The position numbers and the translations under genes were made by a program. From positions 1-36,097 of the IMG/VR virus record IMGVR_UViG_3300032897_000016: a stretch of 36,097 nt of DNA; one strand, given 5' to 3'. A model generated the notes under the pieces. That model was not told the origin of the DNA, made no database searches, and saw only the letters and a program-made list of their open reading frames with translations. Below are positions 5,879-31,404 of the stretch, one piece after another (within the stretch, counting starts at the first letter, position 1; the number at the start of each line of letters is the position of its first letter). Origin of the DNA: a virus.

Positions 5879-6303
5879 TGTCGAAAGATCGAAAAGACGA
5901 CCCACACCTGATGTTCGACAGAAACTTCAACCCGAAGATCACTGGTGGGGTGCTGAAACCCGGGACGTACATCGTTCATCCGGACGGATCATTGACCCAG
6001 ACGAGCCCAACCAGGAGCACCCCCATGAAGCGCCTCCGCAAAAACCCGTTGGAAGGCCACCCGCGCGCCGCCGAGACGCGCCGCATGATGCTTGAGGCGC
6101 GCATCGACGATGAGCAAGAGGTCATGGACCTTCAGGCGAGTGAGCTTGCGTGCGACATCGCAGACACGTGGGCTCGCGCGCGTCCGACTCTTCTTTGCGG
6201 GGACTACCCCGATCTGGATAGCTATGCTCCGGGGCTCGAAAAGGCGCTCAACCGTCTCGAGCTCATCACGCGCCCGAGCGCGATGCGGAAGGTGCGGCCG
6301 TGA
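5878..6303 (+). CDS. Hypothetical protein
   Basis: A 141-residue protein, ATG 5878 sharing one base with the previous stop. The N-terminal 45 residues look extended (KPGTYIVHPDGSLTQT), then a charged helical part follows (MLEARIDDEQEVMDLQASEL). An internal Met at residue 50 could be a second start. No family recognised. Confidence 0.5.
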   Translation: MSKDRKDDPHLMFDRNFNPKITGGVLKPGTYIVHPDGSLTQTSPTRSTPMKRLRKNPLEGHPRAAETRRMMLEARIDDEQEVMDLQASELACDIADTWARARPTLLCGDYPDLDSYAPGLEKALNRLELITRPSAMRKVRP

Positions 6304-19528: not shown

Positions 19529-20145
19529 GCCACATGGCCAAGTCCGAACAGCAGAGCAACCAGGGTAAGAAGATGGAGTACAAGCGCGTCTCCTTCGACA
19601 TCAACGAGATCGCGCCCGACGCGCCTGCGGGCGAGTGGAAGGCGTCGATCCCACGCGGCAAGTGCAAGGTGCAGCCGACGAAAGATGATCACTTCCCAAT
19701 GATCATCGTCCCGATTCGCCTCGACAGCACGCAAGAGGAAGGCGAAGCGTTCGAGAGAGCGCTCGGCACCGAGCTCTCCGTGTTCTTGGTTTTCGGGGCC
19801 AAAACTCCACGCGGTGAGCGCTTGGGCAAGCTTCGCATCCGTCAAGTTTGCGAAGCCACCGACGTCGACCTAGACGTCATCCCCAAGGAGATCAACGACG
19901 GCGACGATCTCCAACCGCTCGTCCGAGCACTCGAGGGCAAGAAGTTCACGGTGTGGACTCGGCTCCAAACGCGGAAGGACACCGGCGAGGTGACCTCCGA
20001 GGTTCTGTTCCAGGATCCGAACAGGACGCTCAGCGCGGCGAGCGACGATGACGACGACGACGACGGGGACGACGACGAGCCGCAGTCAGAACCCGCGCCG
20101 AAAAAGAAGCCGGCGGCGTCGAAGAGCAACGGCAAGAAGCGATGA
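19525..20145 (+). CDS. ssDNA-binding-like protein with acidic tail
   Basis: A 206-residue protein. GTG 19525 overlaps the previous stop by GTGA; ATG 19534 is an alternative. Residues about 20-165 look like an OB-type domain of the kind encoded beside Sak4 proteins (DUF669-like): VSFDINEIAPDAPAGEWKA, FPMIIVPIRL and so on. The C-terminus has an acidic run of 12 Asp/Gly/Glu residues followed by a Lys-rich end. Acidic tails in SSBs recruit partners; a basic end after it is unusual. Confidence 0.6.
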   Translation: MSHMAKSEQQSNQGKKMEYKRVSFDINEIAPDAPAGEWKASIPRGKCKVQPTKDDHFPMIIVPIRLDSTQEEGEAFERALGTELSVFLVFGAKTPRGERLGKLRIRQVCEATDVDLDVIPKEINDGDDLQPLVRALEGKKFTVWTRLQTRKDTGEVTSEVLFQDPNRTLSAASDDDDDDDGDDDEPQSEPAPKKKPAASKSNGKKR

Positions 20146-20309
20146 CACCGCGTCGTAGACGGTCGCTGCTCGAAGACGACGAGCTCTCCGAAATCGGAGA
20201 GCGCGATGAATCTTCGAGCGGCGACGTCTGCGAGGCGTGCGGCTGCACGCGCGGGAAGCACGACGAGGACGGCTGCGCGTGTGGCAGGTGCGAGGAGTTC
20301 GTCGAGTAG
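20142..20309 (+). CDS. 55-residue cysteine-rich zinc protein
   Basis: ATG 20142 overlaps the previous stop by ATGA. After a basic start (MTPRRRRSLLEDDELSEIGE) the C-terminal half has CEACGCTRGKH and CACGRC: six Cys and one His in 21 residues, enough for one or two zinc ions. The pattern resembles small phage zinc proteins with H and C spaced near a final CGRC. Unknown function. Confidence 0.6.
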   Translation: MTPRRRRSLLEDDELSEIGERDESSSGDVCEACGCTRGKHDEDGCACGRCEEFVE

Positions 20310-20323
20310 CAAAAGGGCATTTG

Positions 20324-21226
20324 ATGAGTCCGCCGATCGATTGGTCAAAACTGGTCCCGCAGCCGGAGTTTGCGGGGCTTGCCCGCAGCACAAAAATCTA
20401 CATGGCAGGAAAGGTTGACGAAACCCAATGGCGTCAAGACATTGTCGGCGCTCATCTATCCGAGGCCGACCCAGAAGACGAATGGGTCGAAAGGCGGGTT
20501 TCGTTTTGGGGGCAACGCTACGAGTACGTTGGTCCGTTTTTCAGCGGATCTAGACACGCTAGCGACATGGGCGAACACGGTGACGACGACTGCGCCGACG
20601 AGCACTGCGGCCGATCCGAATGCAACCGCACGGCCATCTTTAGCCGAGCTCTAAATGACTGTGACGCCGTTTTCGTCTGGCTAGATGACCGGACTGCGTT
20701 CGGTACTATTTGGGAAATGGGGTACGCGACCGCACTCGGAAAGAAAGTCGCGGTTGGCGTGTTTCACGATTTCTTCGGCGAAGCTAACGACGAGCTGTGG
20801 TTCCCTCTTATGGGCGTCGATTTCAACAACATCGCCAGCACCTACTCGGCTCGCGAAGCGTTCGAGAAGCTTTTCGGGCCGCCTTCTGCGAAGTCGCAGA
20901 GCGAATCTCCAATCGAGGAGAAGATGTTGGTGGCGCTGCGGGCCGTCCTCCCTTCCCATGTCACTATTCGACAGCAAGTGAATGACATTTGTGGCGGCAG
21001 ATACCGCGCCGACTTTACTGTGACAACCGCCGAAGGCGCCAAAGTCGTTGTGGAATGCGACGGGCACGATTTCCACGAAAAGACGAAAGAGCAAGCGGCG
21101 AGAGACAAAAAGCGGGATCGCGACATGCAGCTTGATGGGTGGAAAGTGCTCCGTTTTACAGGATCGGAAATTTGGCGCGGAGCGGAGGGCTGCGCGAAAG
21201 ACGTCGCGCGAGCGCTCAAAACATGA
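20324..21226 (+). CDS. Nucleoside 2-deoxyribosyltransferase-like/DUF559-like nuclease fusion
   Basis: A 300-residue two-domain protein. Residues 22-185: TKIYMAGKVDETQW, then a Cys/His-rich insert (HGDDDCADEHCGRSEC, 85-100), DCDAVFVWLDDRTAFGTIWEMGYATALGKKVAV (112-144). This is the nucleoside deoxyribosyltransferase plan, with E131 in the position of the catalytic Glu. Residues 195-300: SPIEEKML, GRYRADF (D230), VVVECDG (E244, D246), GWKVLRFTGSEIW, the DUF559/Vsr-like PD-(D/E)XK nuclease plan. The gene is less GC-rich than its neighbours, suggesting separate acquisition. It lies between an SSB-type module and the UDG-polymerase, ATGA-coupled to the latter. ATG 20324 has AAAGGG upstream. Confidence 0.7.
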   Translation: MSPPIDWSKLVPQPEFAGLARSTKIYMAGKVDETQWRQDIVGAHLSEADPEDEWVERRVSFWGQRYEYVGPFFSGSRHASDMGEHGDDDCADEHCGRSECNRTAIFSRALNDCDAVFVWLDDRTAFGTIWEMGYATALGKKVAVGVFHDFFGEANDELWFPLMGVDFNNIASTYSAREAFEKLFGPPSAKSQSESPIEEKMLVALRAVLPSHVTIRQQVNDICGGRYRADFTVTTAEGAKVVVECDGHDFHEKTKEQAARDKKRDRDMQLDGWKVLRFTGSEIWRGAEGCAKDVARALKT

Positions 21227-23811
21227 TGCGCGCGTTGCAGATGGCGGGCGAGTACGACCCCGTCAAGGCCGGTGCTCGCTGTGATCTCTGCCCTCTCAAG
21301 GGGAACACTGTCGTTCCCCCAAAAGTTTCGCCGCTCCCTACGAAGGTCATCTTCGTCGGCGAGGCGCCGGGCAGGAAAGAAGAGATCTTCGGGACTCCGT
21401 TCATCGGCCAGACCGGCGTTTTTCTCAAGGGCCTCTGCCGAGAAGTCGACGTCGACATCCTCGAAGCGCACTTGTCCAACGCCGCGCTTTGTAGGTCGAA
21501 CATCGACAAGGAGAACGAGCTCGCCGCGACCTTCTGCGCTCCTCGACTTTTGAAAGAGCTCGCCGCGTTCGATCCGAAGATCCCCATCGTCACGTTCGGG
21601 AAGACGAGCACGCTTTCCGTGCTCGGCGTCCGGAGCATCATGCACTCGCGCGGGTTCGTCTGGACGGCGCGCGAGATCGATCCCGCGCCTGCCTGGAGCA
21701 AAGCGAAGAAGGCGAAGCTCCGCGGCGCTCCAAAGTGGAAAGAGATTTGGTTGAAAGCGCAGATCGCCGAGGGGCGCAGCAAGCTCGCTGGCAGGACGGT
21801 GCTCCCGACCGTGCACCCTGCGTTCGTGCTCCGCTCCGACACGTGGCTTCCGGTCCTAAAGATCGATCTCGACCGGATCGCTCGCTGGATGCGCGGCGAG
21901 CTGACGCATGAGCTACTACTCGAGAACGGCCCCTACGTCGTCGTATCGAAGCGAGAGCACGTCAAGCGCGAGCTCCGAAAGCTGGGGGACGTCATCAGCG
22001 TCGACGTCGAAACCGGCGCAAGCACGGAAGGAGGGAAAGACGGAGCAGATCCGATCCGCAACCGGCTCCTCTGCGTCGGGATCTCCGACGGCGATCACAC
22101 GGTCGTCATCTGGCCATGGCGAAAGACGCATGCGCCGCTCGTGAACGCGCTCTTCAAGCGCGTGAAGAAGATCGGCATGCACAACGGTTACAACTTCGAC
22201 CAGATCGTACTCGATCGCTTCGACGTCCCGTTCGAGCCGATCGAAGACAAGCTCGAAGACACGCTCGTCGCGCACCACACGTTCGCGAGCCACATGCCGC
22301 AACGCCTCTCTCACGTCGCGAGCGTGTTCGTCGACGCTGGGCCGTGGAAGGTGACGTTCAAGCAAGGCACTGGCGGCGCGACCGAGAAAGGGCTTCCTCC
22401 TGAGAAGCTCTCCGGCGAAGAGCTGACCTTGTACAACGCCGCGGACGCCAGGATCCAAGCGCAGATTTGGCTCAAGATGCAAGCCGACCTAGAAGACGAG
22501 CAGGCAGTCTACGAGGTCGACAAGTCCAACGCGAGATTGTGCCGTTCGATGATCATCAACGGCATCGGCGTCGACATGGAGCGCAGAACGCAGCTCTTGG
22601 AGGCGATGGATCGGAAAGAAACCGATCTTCTCTGGAAGATGCGCAAGCTACTCCGCCGGGCGAAGTTTCACCCGATGCAGCTCGCCGAGGTCCGGAAGGC
22701 GCTCTTCACGATCTTGAAGGCACCGATCGCGTCGGCCGATCCGACGGAGTCTGGCCTTCCGTCGACGTCGCAGACGACGCTCGAACGGTTGAAGACAAGC
22801 TCGACGCGCGCGGGGAGATTCGCCGATCTGCTCTTGCAGTGGCGCGGCGTCGTCAAGATCAAGAGCACCTACCTGATCAGCCAGATCCTCGACAAGCCGT
22901 CGAAAAAGACGCCGCTCGTTTCTCGAACGCACTTCAACTGGCGCAGCTACGGCGCAGCATCGGGGCGTTACTCGTGCCGTTTGCAGTCGTGCCCGCGCGC
23001 GGAGTACCTGAAGGACAAGAGCATCGTGCTCGAGACACGCGTGCGCGAAGTCTACGTCGCGCGTCCGGGGCACAAGCTCATCTACTTCGACCTCAGCCAA
23101 GCCGAGCTCCGGTTCGCGGCTTACCTCTCAGGAGATCAACGCTTCATTGCTGCGTGCGAATCCGGAGACGTGCACACTGCGACGGCGAAGCTGCTCTTCC
23201 CCGCCGAAGCCGAACTCATCGGGCGCGATCCGAAGGGTGCCGGAAAGCCGTTCCGAGACGTCGAGAAGAACTGCATCTTCGGTTTCATCTACTACGCGCA
23301 GCCGGATACGATCTTCGGCTTCGTGCGCAGCAAAGGGCTCCCAGTCCAGATGCGCGACGTGGTCTCGATGCACGACATGGTGCGCGACGTGTTCGCGGGG
23401 TACTTCAGATACGTCGAACAGAACAAGCGGTGGGTCGACAAGCACGGCCATCTCCGCGACGCGCTCTCGGGGAGAATCTCGTGGCTCGGATGGCACGCGG
23501 GGTACCCGGACGTCGCGAACCGACCGATTCAGGGGGGCATCGCATCGCTGATGAACGTACGCCTCCCGTTCATTTCCAGTCGGCTTCCGCAGAGCGCTAG
23601 CGTCGTCGCGCAGATCCACGACGCGGCGATCATGGAGGTCCCGGATCGTCATGTCGATCTCGTGAAAGCGCTCGTCAAGACGACGTGGGAGGAGCCAGTC
23701 ATCATTCCAGCGAACGGGTGGGGGACGAGCACGCGCGTCGAGGACGGCGCTCGACAGTTCGTGATGCCGATCGATCTGAAAGTGGGCGAACGGTGGAGCG
23801 ATTTCGGGTGA
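21223..23811 (+). CDS. UDG-3'-5' exonuclease-family A DNA polymerase fusion
   Basis: An 862-residue protein. Residues 1-220: family-4-like uracil-DNA glycosylase, with GEAPGRKEE (46-54), PFIGQTG, HPA (198-200) and cysteines 20, 23, 90 and 105 for a 4Fe-4S cluster. About 240-430: 3'-5' exonuclease with VDVET (D261, E263), NGYNFD and YNAAD. 430-862: polymerase with motif A DLSQAELR (D623, E628), motif B R678, K682, F686, Y690, and motif C H799-D800-A801, where Glu is usual. PolA-type polymerases with UDG-like domains are known in SPO1-like phages. This would be the replicative polymerase, able to link uracil recognition to synthesis. ATG 21223 is set by ATGA overlap. Confidence 0.85.
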   Translation: MMRALQMAGEYDPVKAGARCDLCPLKGNTVVPPKVSPLPTKVIFVGEAPGRKEEIFGTPFIGQTGVFLKGLCREVDVDILEAHLSNAALCRSNIDKENELAATFCAPRLLKELAAFDPKIPIVTFGKTSTLSVLGVRSIMHSRGFVWTAREIDPAPAWSKAKKAKLRGAPKWKEIWLKAQIAEGRSKLAGRTVLPTVHPAFVLRSDTWLPVLKIDLDRIARWMRGELTHELLLENGPYVVVSKREHVKRELRKLGDVISVDVETGASTEGGKDGADPIRNRLLCVGISDGDHTVVIWPWRKTHAPLVNALFKRVKKIGMHNGYNFDQIVLDRFDVPFEPIEDKLEDTLVAHHTFASHMPQRLSHVASVFVDAGPWKVTFKQGTGGATEKGLPPEKLSGEELTLYNAADARIQAQIWLKMQADLEDEQAVYEVDKSNARLCRSMIINGIGVDMERRTQLLEAMDRKETDLLWKMRKLLRRAKFHPMQLAEVRKALFTILKAPIASADPTESGLPSTSQTTLERLKTSSTRAGRFADLLLQWRGVVKIKSTYLISQILDKPSKKTPLVSRTHFNWRSYGAASGRYSCRLQSCPRAEYLKDKSIVLETRVREVYVARPGHKLIYFDLSQAELRFAAYLSGDQRFIAACESGDVHTATAKLLFPAEAELIGRDPKGAGKPFRDVEKNCIFGFIYYAQPDTIFGFVRSKGLPVQMRDVVSMHDMVRDVFAGYFRYVEQNKRWVDKHGHLRDALSGRISWLGWHAGYPDVANRPIQGGIASLMNVRLPFISSRLPQSASVVAQIHDAAIMEVPDRHVDLVKALVKTTWEEPVIIPANGWGTSTRVEDGARQFVMPIDLKVGERWSDFG

Positions 23812-23841: not shown

Positions 23842-24363
23842 ATGGCGCCCCCCGCTCGTCCTAGTCCCAACATGCAAGATAGCCTCTCTTTTACAGCCAT
23901 GATGGACGACTCCCCCGGCCCTCGCGCCGAGCTCATCGACCCTACCGCTACGGTCGCTTTCATGCTGGCTGGGCACGCCTACGTGACGTTCCAGAGCCGC
24001 CGGACGAGCACTCGATTCACCTACCGAATCGTCCAGGCTGAGCGCCGTGCAGGCGACACCGGCGAGCCGCCGCACTTCGTGGCCGTGCTGACGGGTTCCG
24101 ACAACGACAGCAGCTACGACTACCTCGGGTGCATCTACCGCCGGCTCGCGTACGCGCACGGGCGGAAGAGCCGCATCGCGCCGGACGCTCCGAGCGCCGT
24201 CGCCTTCGCGTGGGTTTGGAAGCGACTCTCGGCGGGGCAGATGCACCCGGAGCTTGGGGTATGGCACGAAGGGCGCTGTGGGCGCTGTGGAAGACGGCTC
24301 ACGGACCCTTTGTCGATTTCGCGAGGGATGGGTTCTTTTTGCTGGGAGCGCTTCGGTGTTTGA
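23842..24363 (+). CDS. Protein with DUF6011-like zinc motif
   Basis: A 173-residue protein. The C-terminal CGRCGRRLTDPLSISRGMGSFCWERFG has the DUF6011-type pattern (CGxCGRxLTDPxSIxRGxGxxC), a four-Cys or three-Cys zinc site common in actinophage and other phage proteins. The N-terminal 130 residues contain a strand-rich segment (AYVTFQSRRTSTRFTYRIVQ) of unknown fold. ATG 23842 lacks a clear Shine-Dalgarno sequence; Met at 23899 could be the true start. Its last 65 nt overlap the antisense endonuclease gene. Confidence 0.6.
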   Translation: MAPPARPSPNMQDSLSFTAMMDDSPGPRAELIDPTATVAFMLAGHAYVTFQSRRTSTRFTYRIVQAERRAGDTGEPPHFVAVLTGSDNDSSYDYLGCIYRRLAYAHGRKSRIAPDAPSAVAFAWVWKRLSAGQMHPELGVWHEGRCGRCGRRLTDPLSISRGMGSFCWERFGV

Positions 24364-24916
24364 GCAAGTAGTCGGCGGCGCGTCGCAGTCTCTTCGGATC
24401 GTCTCCGAATTGGCCGAGACCGACGTTGCAGGGGCCGCAGATCAACCCGCGGAACGTGCGCCGACGGTGATCGTGGTCGATGTGAAGGCTCTTCTTTCCG
24501 TTTCCGGCTTGTCGCGCTGTCCTCCCACAAATAGTGCATCGTTTTCGTCGGCGTACAGCACGAACGACGTCTTCCAGTTGGTGTCCGAGCCCCAACTGTC
24601 GCACACGCCGATGGAGACGGTGCACCGCATGCTTCTTCGGGTTGGCGCGCTTCAACCCACCGCAACCTCCAGGGCATCGGTTGTAGCCGACCCAATGGCG
24701 GTCACCTTTCTTGCGCCATCGAGTGATGCGGCGTGTTCGGAAACGGCACTCGAAACACTTCTTCGCAGTGATACGTTTGCGGCGCCCGCAGCAGGAGCAT
24801 TTGTCGTAGAGGTGCCAGTGGCGGTCAGGGTGCAAGCCCAACCATCGGCCACGCGACGCGCGGCGCCATCGAAGCGGTTTTATAGGCGGTCTGGGGCCAG
24901 TGCGCACGTCGGGCAT
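24299..24916 (-). CDS. Endonuclease VII-like (HNH/His-Me) nuclease, antisense
   Basis: A 205-residue protein on the opposite strand to the replication operon. Residues 125-190, CTICGR...SLHIDHDHRRRTFRGLICGPCNVGLGQFGDDP..LRRAADYL, match the recombination endonuclease VII domain: DH-D-H metal/catalytic core, zinc cysteines and the L-CxxCN-xLG turn. Upstream of it are more Cys pairs (CSCCGRRKRITAKKCFEC, CPGGCGG), perhaps extra zinc modules for DNA binding. T4 Endo VII resolves branched DNA; stand-alone relatives can be homing endonucleases. Its orientation, basic extra modules and position between two operon genes favour a mobile (homing) insertion. ATG 24916. Confidence 0.75.
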   Translation of the reverse strand: MPDVRTGPRPPIKPLRWRRASRGRWLGLHPDRHWHLYDKCSCCGRRKRITAKKCFECRFRTRRITRWRKKGDRHWVGYNRCPGGCGGLKRANPKKHAVHRLHRRVRQLGLGHQLEDVVRAVRRRKRCTICGRTARQAGNGKKSLHIDHDHRRRTFRGLICGPCNVGLGQFGDDPKRLRRAADYLLKHRSAPSKKNPSLAKSTKGP

Positions 24917-29340: not shown

Positions 29341-29642
29341 AGGTCCGCGCCGGCAACCGCTACGTTGACCGTCCGCTGCGCGAGCTGATCGCCGAAGCGA
29401 TCGGTGCCGCCGTCGCTCGCGCGCTCGAGGCGGAACGCCTTTCGATGAAGAGCGAGTTCGACCGCGTCACCGCCGAGTTCGAGCGCGAGAAGCAACGCCT
29501 GCAAGAGCAAGCAGCTCTCGATCGGAAAGAGGCGTATCTGCGCGGGTTCTGTGATGGAACCGATGCGATGGCGAACGACATCGCGCGGCGCCTAGAACGG
29601 CGGACCGCGTTGCTGCCGAGGCGGACGGAGGAGGTCATATGA
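29331..29642 (+). CDS. Coiled-coil hypothetical protein
   Basis: A 103-residue protein from ATG 29331; GTG 29337 (GTGA overlap) is equally possible. Long heptad-rich helix (ALEAERLSMKSEFDRVTAEF, EREKQRLQEQAALDRKEAYL) suggests a coiled coil. No family recognised. Confidence 0.55.
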   Translation: MVVKVRAGNRYVDRPLRELIAEAIGAAVARALEAERLSMKSEFDRVTAEFEREKQRLQEQAALDRKEAYLRGFCDGTDAMANDIARRLERRTALLPRRTEEVI

Positions 29643-30346
29643 TCATCGGAATTTCTGGGCTCGCCGGCAGCGGCAAGGACACGTGTGCCGACTTCCTCGT
29701 GCGCGACCACGGCTTCGTGAAGGTCGCGCTCGCGGACCCGATCAAGCGCATGACCGCTGAGGCGTTTGGCTTCTCGTACGAGCAGCTTTGGGGAGCGAGC
29801 TCCGAGCGCAACAAGCCTGACGAACGGTATCCGAGATCTCATGGACCTATTTACAAAGACGGCAGGTGCGCGTGTTGCGGGCACTCTCTTGTGGGCGCGT
29901 TCGAGCGCGAGATGCAGTGTTACCTCACCCCTCGCTTCGCTCTCCAACGACTCGGTACGGAGTGGGGACGCGGCTGCTACGACAACGTTTGGGTCGAGTA
30001 CGCGGTCAGGGTAGCTGAAGTGCTATCCGACGGGCGCCATTACTACGATCCGTCTCATCGTTGCAACATGCTCTACGAGGTGAATCACTCGACACCGTCG
30101 AGCGTCGTCATCCCCGACGTCCGCTTCAAAAACGAGATCGACGGCCTCCGCGCGCACGGAGCGAAGCTGATCCGCGTCGTGCGACCGAGTGCTGGACTCG
30201 CGGGCGCGGCGGGGCAGCACACGAGCGAGACGGAGCAGGCGTCGATCCCGGACTCTGTTTTCGATACGGTGATTCAGAACGCGGGAACCGTCGCTGATCT
30301 TGGGGAGGCAGTGAATCGCGCGTTGTTCTTCATCGCAGAGAAGTAA
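29639..30346 (+). CDS. Deoxynucleoside monophosphate kinase-like
   Basis: A 235-residue protein. The P-loop GLAGSGKDT (7-15) directly after the N-terminal strand, with VALADPIKRMTAEAFG and a late VIPDVRFKNEIDGLRAHGAKLIRVVRP, is the pattern of phage dNMP kinases (T4 gp1 type), which phosphorylate several dNMPs to dNDPs. Insert CACCGH (near 79) is unusual and might bind zinc. It is next to ThyX, giving a dTTP-supply pair. Confidence 0.75.
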   Translation: MIIGISGLAGSGKDTCADFLVRDHGFVKVALADPIKRMTAEAFGFSYEQLWGASSERNKPDERYPRSHGPIYKDGRCACCGHSLVGAFEREMQCYLTPRFALQRLGTEWGRGCYDNVWVEYAVRVAEVLSDGRHYYDPSHRCNMLYEVNHSTPSSVVIPDVRFKNEIDGLRAHGAKLIRVVRPSAGLAGAAGQHTSETEQASIPDSVFDTVIQNAGTVADLGEAVNRALFFIAEK

Positions 30347-30348
30347 CC

Positions 30349-31404
30349 GTGGGCGCCATCGAAGAAAAAACCGGCAACGTCGTCGCGGGCCCCGCCATCA
30401 TGGGCGAGCCGTGGTGGTTGATCCGCGACGCGAGCGGGAGGGGGATCTGCTGTCACATGGCGTCGAGCTGGTTTTCGGCGCGTGAGATCGGGCGAAGGCT
30501 TGTCGAGACGGACGTCTCGGCGGAATTGGTCAACAGGAAGAAGGAAGAGAAGAAGATGGTCAAGATCTTGAAGGAAGAACCCGTCGTCACCGTCATGGCC
30601 GACATGCAACTCGACCCGAACGGCATCAACGAGATGGCGGAGTGGGTGCGCTCGCGGAGTCCGGAGTGCATCCCGGACGAGTACGATCAGGGCGCTCCGA
30701 GCGCCTACCTCGCGCTCTTTCCGCGTGACCTCACCACCGAAACAGACAACGAGCTCCTCGTCGAGCTCGCCGGTCGCAAATGCTACAACAGCTTCGGGCT
30801 CAAGGCGGGGCGCAAGTCCAACGCAGAGTACATCGCGAACACGCAGCAAGGCGACGTCCCGCACGCGAGCATCATGTACCACGCGAAGATGACGTTCTTC
30901 ATCGCGGGCGTCTCGCGTCGCGTCTCACACGAGCTCATCCGTCACTACGTCGGCGCGGACCGCACCGAAGAGGGCTCGCCGTCGCAGGAGTCGACGAGGT
31001 ACGTCGAGCACTCGGGCTGCTATGTCGCGCACCCGGCAATCCTCGACAATCCGGAAGAGTTGGCTCTGTTCGCGGGCGCTATGGGACGGAACTACTCCGA
31101 GTATCGCGACTACATCCAACGCCGGATAGAGGCATATCGACGCGACCACGCTGGCGCGAACCCGATCGGTATGGACAAGAAGCGCATCTTCGAGAGCGCG
31201 AGCCCGTACCTCTCGCACGCCTGCGAGACGTCGTTCGTGTGGACGACGAACCCGATCGCCCTCGCGAAAATGTTCCGTGAGCGTGACCACGAAGCGGCCG
31301 ATCTCGAGTACCTGCGCCTCGCGCGGAAGTGGAAGAAGATCTGCATCGAGCGGTGGCCGGGGTTGTTTCCGCAGCCGTGGATGAAAACCGGAGATGGCAA
31401 GTGA
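30349..31404 (+). CDS. thyX: ThyX flavin-dependent thymidylate synthase, extended and variant
   Basis: Residues 70-351 are ThyX: GRKCYNSF near 144, FFIAGVSRRVSHELIRH, SQESTRYVEH. ThyX makes dTMP from dUMP using FAD and methylene-tetrahydrofolate. The signature (RHR-x7-S) is altered here: R198-H199-Y200 is followed by about 7 extra residues before SPSQESTRY. The first 69 residues (from GTG 30349) hold a small unknown domain with ICCHMASSWFSAREIG. A GAAGGAAGAGAAGAAG stretch precedes Met 70 (ATG 30556), which could give a second, ThyX-only product. Confidence 0.75.
   Translation: MGAIEEKTGNVVAGPAIMGEPWWLIRDASGRGICCHMASSWFSAREIGRRLVETDVSAELVNRKKEEKKMVKILKEEPVVTVMADMQLDPNGINEMAEWVRSRSPECIPDEYDQGAPSAYLALFPRDLTTETDNELLVELAGRKCYNSFGLKAGRKSNAEYIANTQQGDVPHASIMYHAKMTFFIAGVSRRVSHELIRHYVGADRTEEGSPSQESTRYVEHSGCYVAHPAILDNPEELALFAGAMGRNYSEYRDYIQRRIEAYRRDHAGANPIGMDKKRIFESASPYLSHACETSFVWTTNPIALAKMFRERDHEAADLEYLRLARKWKKICIERWPGLFPQPWMKTGDGK

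Follow-up and report, generated by a model that had tools for sequence, protein, structure and literature searches.

Proteins with the nucleoside 2-deoxyribosyltransferase (NDT) fold are known from nucleotide salvage and the cleaning of nucleotide pools. In the IMG/VR virus record IMGVR_UViG_3300032897_000016, analysed over its full 36,097 bases (the window), one gene encodes a 300-amino-acid protein in which an NDT-like domain precedes a predicted DUF559/MTES_1575 Vsr-like nuclease, and this NDT-like domain belongs to a family whose nuclease partners cluster on the tree yet appear, from the sequences, to have been repeatedly exchanged. The first-pass annotation of the window knew of no described function for the fusion, in keeping with a literature search that gave no paper joining NDT and DUF559, found Nuc_deoxyri_tr2 named in no paper and, for NDT joined with HNH, Vsr or a nuclease-domain fusion, turned up only PMC3710099.

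Fusions of AbiJ-NTD1 with NDT have been reported, with the proposal that NDT acts on DNA as ricin does on RNA; these proteins likewise join NDT to a conflict-system domain with a suggested action on DNA, though the partner is a helical Abi domain and not a nuclease, and the function is a prediction only (PMC3710099). The phages Ghobes and Wayne encode DmtZ, an NDT-superfamily domain that shares the Tyr and Glu of the catalytic triad and that, in Wayne, has another catalytic domain fused to it (DmtZ-DutZ); it differs in that the partner is a dUTPase-like enzyme instead of a nuclease, in keeping Asn77 where the window's family has Cys, Val, Ile or others, and in having no reported His insert such as the window's family has (PMC12884076). 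The N-hydrolases DNPH1/Rcl and MilB/BcmB have the same fold as the family domain and a GTxxExG motif with its Glu, while the cytidine monophosphate (CMP) N-glycosidase 4jen and MilB keep a catalytic Asp that the window's family does not. We know of no nuclease fusion of DNPH1/Rcl or MilB/BcmB. These enzymes act on free nucleotides (PMC12884076). Base-excising restriction enzymes also exist, and the PabI-type restriction glycosylases would share with the fusion base loss and a backbone break as a form of restriction, a likeness of mechanism only; they differ in their HALFPIPE fold and in an apurinic/apyrimidinic lyase activity of their own (PMC10273834). The HALFPIPE fold was not among the structure matches listed, an absence that is no exclusion.

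The fusion gene (20324-21226, + strand) is uninterrupted from its ATG to the stop TGA (21224-21226) and follows a weak AAAGGG-like ribosome site. The AlphaFold2 model of its product, built with 68 sequences, contains two folded domains (mean predicted local distance difference test, pLDDT, 81.7; predicted template-modelling score, pTM, 0.64), and structure prediction, which the first-pass annotation had proposed as a check, recovered both an NDT fold and a Vsr-like nuclease fold. The C-terminal domain (residues 193-300; 20900-21223, +) matches PF18741 MTES_1575 at 41.7 bits (cut-off 38.2) and PF04480 DUF559 at 38.2 bits (cut-off 20.6), both within residues 197-298, and the C-terminal half of the model matches 3hrl (Z 12.5; root-mean-square deviation 1.9 over 90 residues) and the EDxHD homing endonuclease I-Bth0305I (3r3p_A; Z 11.5, deviation 2.8 over 94 residues). 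Residues E198, Q218, D230, E244, D246 and H251 are invariant in all 38 nuclease rows. For this half, the 67 nuclease loci were thinned to 58 by dropping L029, in which no motif was found, and eight near-copies, and 29 were used in the model alignment. By profile, fold and active-site residues, among them the D230, E244 and D246 first named from the sequence, the domain is assigned to the DUF559/MTES_1575 Vsr-like nucleases, with cleavage predicted. MTES_1575 is itself named as a Vsr nuclease (PMC3710099) and is present in a putative endonuclease of a Geobacillus phage (PMC10459684). These nucleases and I-Bth0305I share with the fusion the profile, the fold and the invariant acidic and His residues; the DUF559 relatives differ in that 67 of the 69 loci found with the whole protein match its C-terminal part only, mostly as short proteins with no NDT-like domain. 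At 65%, the DUF559 domain nearest to the window's after that of the sister locus L001 lies in L003 (7593-8333), where it follows a different N-terminal part that is rich in Cys, a further case of a swapped partner.

The 69 loci came from viral contigs, and both halves were covered only in L001 (93%) and L002 (54%). That the fusion is confined to the window's lineage was ruled out by domain-only profile searches, in which the N-terminal domain recovered three further family loci, among them L078 with the same fusion, and then 50 loci. A Streptomyces canus plasmid protein (L072, NZ_CP108301.1) is the same fusion and the sole cellular record carrying it; the N-terminal domain was unmatched in the phage collection and the genome contigs, a search in which bacterial chromosomes were essentially unsurveyed. 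Across 48 family rows, the NDT-like domain is joined to an N-terminal HNH domain (22), a C-terminal DUF559 domain (9), an N-terminal PD-(D/E)XK-like domain (3), an N-terminal GIY-YIG domain (2), a C-terminal HNH domain (2), a C-terminal GIY-YIG domain (1) or an AlpA-type helix-turn-helix (1), and stands alone in eight. A nuclease is present in 39 of these rows, in six arrangements. The GIY-YIG partners are of the MUG113/T5orf172 type and occur on either side of the NDT-like domain, while the PD-(D/E)XK-like partner weakly matches phage endonuclease I as well as a PHROG for a Holliday junction resolvase. Several of the HNH labels rest on PHROG matches and not on a Pfam cut-off; L090, L109, L114, L115, L117 and L119 were labelled HNH by a CxxC-HH-CxxCH pattern and likeness to scanned rows, and L127 was labelled PD-(D/E)XK-like by likeness to L099 and L123.

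NDT-domain patterns alone supplied the loci, so the choice did not favour nucleases. As a control, the other open reading frames (ORFs) of at least 150 amino acids in these loci were counted: 3 of 393 carry a nuclease domain plus at least 110 amino acids of other sequence. This count, for which the nuclease profiles derive from domains of the family itself, led us to reject chance joining to a promiscuous nuclease. The Fisher comparison (39:8 vs 3:390) leaves out the AlpA row and ignores relatedness. Among nuclease-selected loci, 20 of 813 ORFs have such a domain plus other sequence, 17 of these being the DUF559 used to choose the loci; ordinary phage NDT, with two loci only, was not used as a control. 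The tree of the 48 rows, from which the near-copies L093, L106, L112 and L121 were removed and to which the window and the plasmid protein were added, requires at least 15 changes of partner label, above the minimum of 7 and below the 23.9 averaged by shuffled labels, which is why the partners are taken to cluster and yet to be repeatedly exchanged. DUF559 alone needs four changes, and starred branches, which make up just 17 of the 45 inner ones, force two.

Several relatives extend these architectures. In L128 (2413-3423) the NDT-like domain lies behind the AlpA-type helix-turn-helix, and the product of L085 (7986-9206) has about 100 extra C-terminal residues beyond its nuclease domain. In L072 (2451-6903) the plasmid fusion is preceded by genes for an HNH-helicase protein and a hypothetical protein, in what may be a defence-type operon. 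On a Citrobacter plasmid (L129, NZ_CP056202.1; 3185-6469), an ORF annotated as a PfkB kinase matches the NDT query beside an annotated 7-cyano-7-deazaguanine synthase, a dehydrogenase and an 8-oxoguanine glycosylase, with a DNA adenine methylase and a dGTPase near. The window protein matched no PADLOC-DB 2.0.0 family at E ≤ 0.01, and its filing as a known defence protein was dropped; PADLOC matches in ten relatives fall almost only in the nuclease parts.

The N-terminal domain (residues about 23-188; 20390-20887, +) matches PF15891 Nuc_deoxyri_tr2 at 31.8 bits (cut-off 30) over residues 107-150 and PF05014 at 26.4 bits, under the cut-off of 28.8; PF05014 is matched by 46 of 47 family members at E ≤ 0.01. 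Aligned with VIA-align, the N-terminal half of the model matches 7m5h (Z 11.7) and DNPH1 (8rpt, Z 11.1), with unrelated GTPases also near Z 10. A GTPase identity, ranked high by a whole-model Foldseek search on a common Rossmann-like layout, was set aside: for the domain of L083, a family member with no nuclease modelled alone (pLDDT 81.2, pTM 0.80), all 50 matches listed are NDT-superfamily proteins (YtoQ, 2'-deoxyribosyltransferases, DNPH1 and MilB; Z 10.7-12.6). When run against sequences from solved structures, the profile of the family matches 4jen (2.7e-6), a T. brucei deoxyribosyltransferase (7.9e-5) and MilB (about 3e-4). Gly29, Lys30, Trp36, Arg37, Gly70, Pro71, His85, Gly127, Thr128, Glu131, Gly133 and Trp159 are invariant in 39 rows. 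The Cys/His-rich loop insert (residues about 71-98; 20534-20617, +), pointed out in the first-pass annotation, is real, though the window has a degraded form of the family motif (best cases CDHGCxHG...HG); its constant part is H78 (38 of 39 rows) and H85 (39 of 39), and it is modelled with low confidence and no regular structure predicted. By sequence, this is a distinct NDT-like family marked by the two near-invariant insert His and by GK, WR, GP and GTxxExG.

Of the NDT catalytic triad, the nucleophile Glu (E131, GTxxExG; codon 20714-20716, +), which had been called conserved, is present in 39 of 39 NDT rows, partly by construction, as one of the two search patterns required it, and the Tyr of YxAG is present in 46 of 48. 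The third position, fixed by alignment to 4jen and MilB, should hold Asp or Asn in a catalytic NDT or deoxynucleoside monophosphate (dNMP) N-hydrolase; across 48 rows it is Cys in 26, Val in 7, Ser in 4, Ile in 4, Asn in 3 and others in 4, never Asp, and in the window it is Phe. Catalytic activity is not to be assumed with this residue missing. The earlier label of a nucleoside 2-deoxyribosyltransferase-like domain holds for the fold and the PF15891 match, while 'deoxyribosyltransferase' overstates it: the family is NDT-fold with a conserved but different pocket, for which a catalytic label is premature and any enzyme activity putative. The window copy departs further, as relative to L001 a 9-base in-frame gap (20643-20646, +) drops three residues including the Cys at the triad position, with another gap of 33 bases near the N-terminus, and it may be a weakened copy or reflect an assembly difference.

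A missing catalytic Asp beside an otherwise conserved pocket would suit a ligand switch, in which a nucleotide made during infection is bound but not converted by the NDT-like domain, which thereby activates or silences the nuclease, and NDT-like genes occur, by gene label, in retron operons (PMC12548924). This is the most doubtful of the readings considered: every row counted retains the nucleophile Glu, with the reservation on the search pattern given above, and no partner synthase gene was seen, though no specific search for one was made. Nearest solved structures that include DNPH1 and MilB, and a CMP N-glycosidase as the closest sequence match, accord with nucleotide breakdown and sanitation, modelled on DNPH1 with hydroxymethyl-deoxyuridine monophosphate and DmtZ with deoxyadenosine monophosphate (dAMP). 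The nuclease would degrade DNA, and hydrolysis of particular dNMPs by the NDT-like domain, yielding base and deoxyribose phosphate, would prevent unwanted nucleotides from entering phage DNA. DmtZ-DutZ is a known phage case in which an NDT-superfamily dAMP hydrolase/transferase is joined to a nucleotide enzyme (PMC12884076), and ThyX, a dNMP kinase and a uracil-DNA glycosylase (UDG)-polymerase are also in the window. The missing Asp/Asn counts against this, as do fusion partners that are nucleases rather than nucleotide enzymes and the rarity of ThyX (4 of 30) and UDG (1 of 30) among family records, window included, and we regard sanitation as unlikely, if second in weight.

The reading that we place first, tentatively, is base- or nucleotide-directed attack on DNA by a two-domain phage protein. 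From the architecture and its recurrence, which the sequences show, we infer a mechanism. Because the NDT-like part is constant while what is exchanged is almost always a nuclease, the NDT-like domain would either confer specificity or carry out the initial chemistry on a nucleobase, whether within DNA or at one of its ends. The domain would bind the nucleobase or break its N-glycosidic bond through the Glu, and the nuclease domain would cut the backbone; the most likely use would be selective breakdown of DNA foreign to the phage (host, competing phage or plasmid). Support comes from the partner swapping, the conserved non-canonical pocket (Tyr, GK, WR, GP, two His, GTxxExG and Trp), the intact active-site residues of the nuclease and the replication and recombination neighbours, with the AbiJ-NTD1-NDT proteins (PMC3710099) and the base-excising restriction enzymes (PMC10273834) as precedents. 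Base exchange, discrimination between host and phage DNA and a role in defence, all raised in the first-pass annotation, are putative. Several observations weigh on the other side. With Asp absent and Asn in three of 48 rows at the triad position, glycosidic cleavage may not occur; DmtZ, a characterised phage NDT-superfamily enzyme, acts on free nucleotides (PMC12884076); the eight rows that stand alone and the one with the AlpA-type helix-turn-helix indicate that the nuclease is not obligatory; and the pTM of the two-domain model does not fix the contact between the domains. N6/N4 DNA methylases, a candidate company for the gene, were unenriched (8 of 25 NDT-family records vs 10 of 25 controls), and a self-marking scheme is not favoured. 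A broader and improbable form of base-directed attack would be a class of phage base-directed nucleases, in which the NDT-fold module recognises one particular deoxynucleobase in DNA or removes it, interchangeable Vsr-like, HNH, GIY-YIG and PD-(D/E)XK modules cut beside it, and own and foreign DNA are told apart by base identity.

The repeated union of one NDT-like family with nucleases of unrelated kinds points to action on DNA or close to it. Action on bases within DNA would give base-directed restriction a second chemistry alongside that of the PabI family; it might also yield a tool for modified bases and would offer a testable account of phage genes whose only annotation is DUF559, HNH or nucleoside deoxyribosyltransferase. 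Were its action limited to free nucleotides, the coupling of DNA breakdown to the release of bases would still be a metabolic step new to phages. The surprise lies in the swapping of nucleases around an NDT-like domain that stays constant, and it opens the question to direct test.

The fusion gene sits in the phage replication and recombination region. On its 5' side are a VapE-like helicase/primase, a PD-(D/E)XK exonuclease, a Sak4-like annealing protein, a 206-amino-acid protein and a 55-amino-acid zinc-finger-like ORF with CxxC pairs (20142-20309, +), which is kept in L001 (100%) and L002 (79% over 34 residues) and had no PHROG match. On its 3' side are UDG fused to a family A DNA polymerase (21223-23811, +), an endonuclease VII on the other strand, Dda-like and SNF2 helicases, a dNMP kinase, ThyX and an integrase. 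The start of the UDG-polymerase gene overlaps the stop of the fusion gene (ATGA, 21223-21226), so the coupling reported in the first-pass annotation holds in the window, as does the lower GC content that it gave as a sign of separate acquisition: 0.567 for the fusion gene vs a window mean of 0.625 (standard deviation 0.019), with only 0.14% of 903-base windows matching or falling below it, and 0.638 at third codon positions vs 0.75-0.85 in nine other listed genes. The syntenic L002 shares the module (exonuclease 67%, Sak4 86%, 206-amino-acid protein 72%, UDG-polymerase 81%, the last being 96% in L001), while the fusion protein is at 54%. There the fusion gene lies downstream of the polymerase, again with an ATGA overlap (5946-5949), and the zinc-finger ORF leads straight into the polymerase. 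The swapped side and the low GC point to a gene that moves independently of its neighbours, in agreement with a separate acquisition.

The change of side relative to the polymerase, with an ATGA overlap in both arrangements, is also suggestive, though only that, of a homing-type mobile nuclease, in which the nuclease mobilises the gene and the NDT-like domain either serves for targeting or is carried along. Phage homing nucleases combine HNH with a DNA-binding domain (PMC10448857), and both the low GC and the match of the C-terminal domain to I-Bth0305I fit such an element. The NDT-like pocket residues are, however, conserved across partners beyond the needs of a passenger, Rfam families including group I and II introns all scored under cut-off in the window, L002, L078, L081 and L084, and the cleavage site is not known; homing is accordingly ranked third, behind base-directed attack and sanitation and ahead of the ligand switch, and is improbable.

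A functional link to the UDG-polymerase did not extend to the family as a general rule. UDG went unmatched in the other 29 family records searched, making the link a trait of the window's lineage. Elsewhere in the window, the dNMP kinase is followed directly by ThyX (29639-31404), and the endonuclease VII-like gene (24299-24916, -) lies on the strand opposite to the replication genes.
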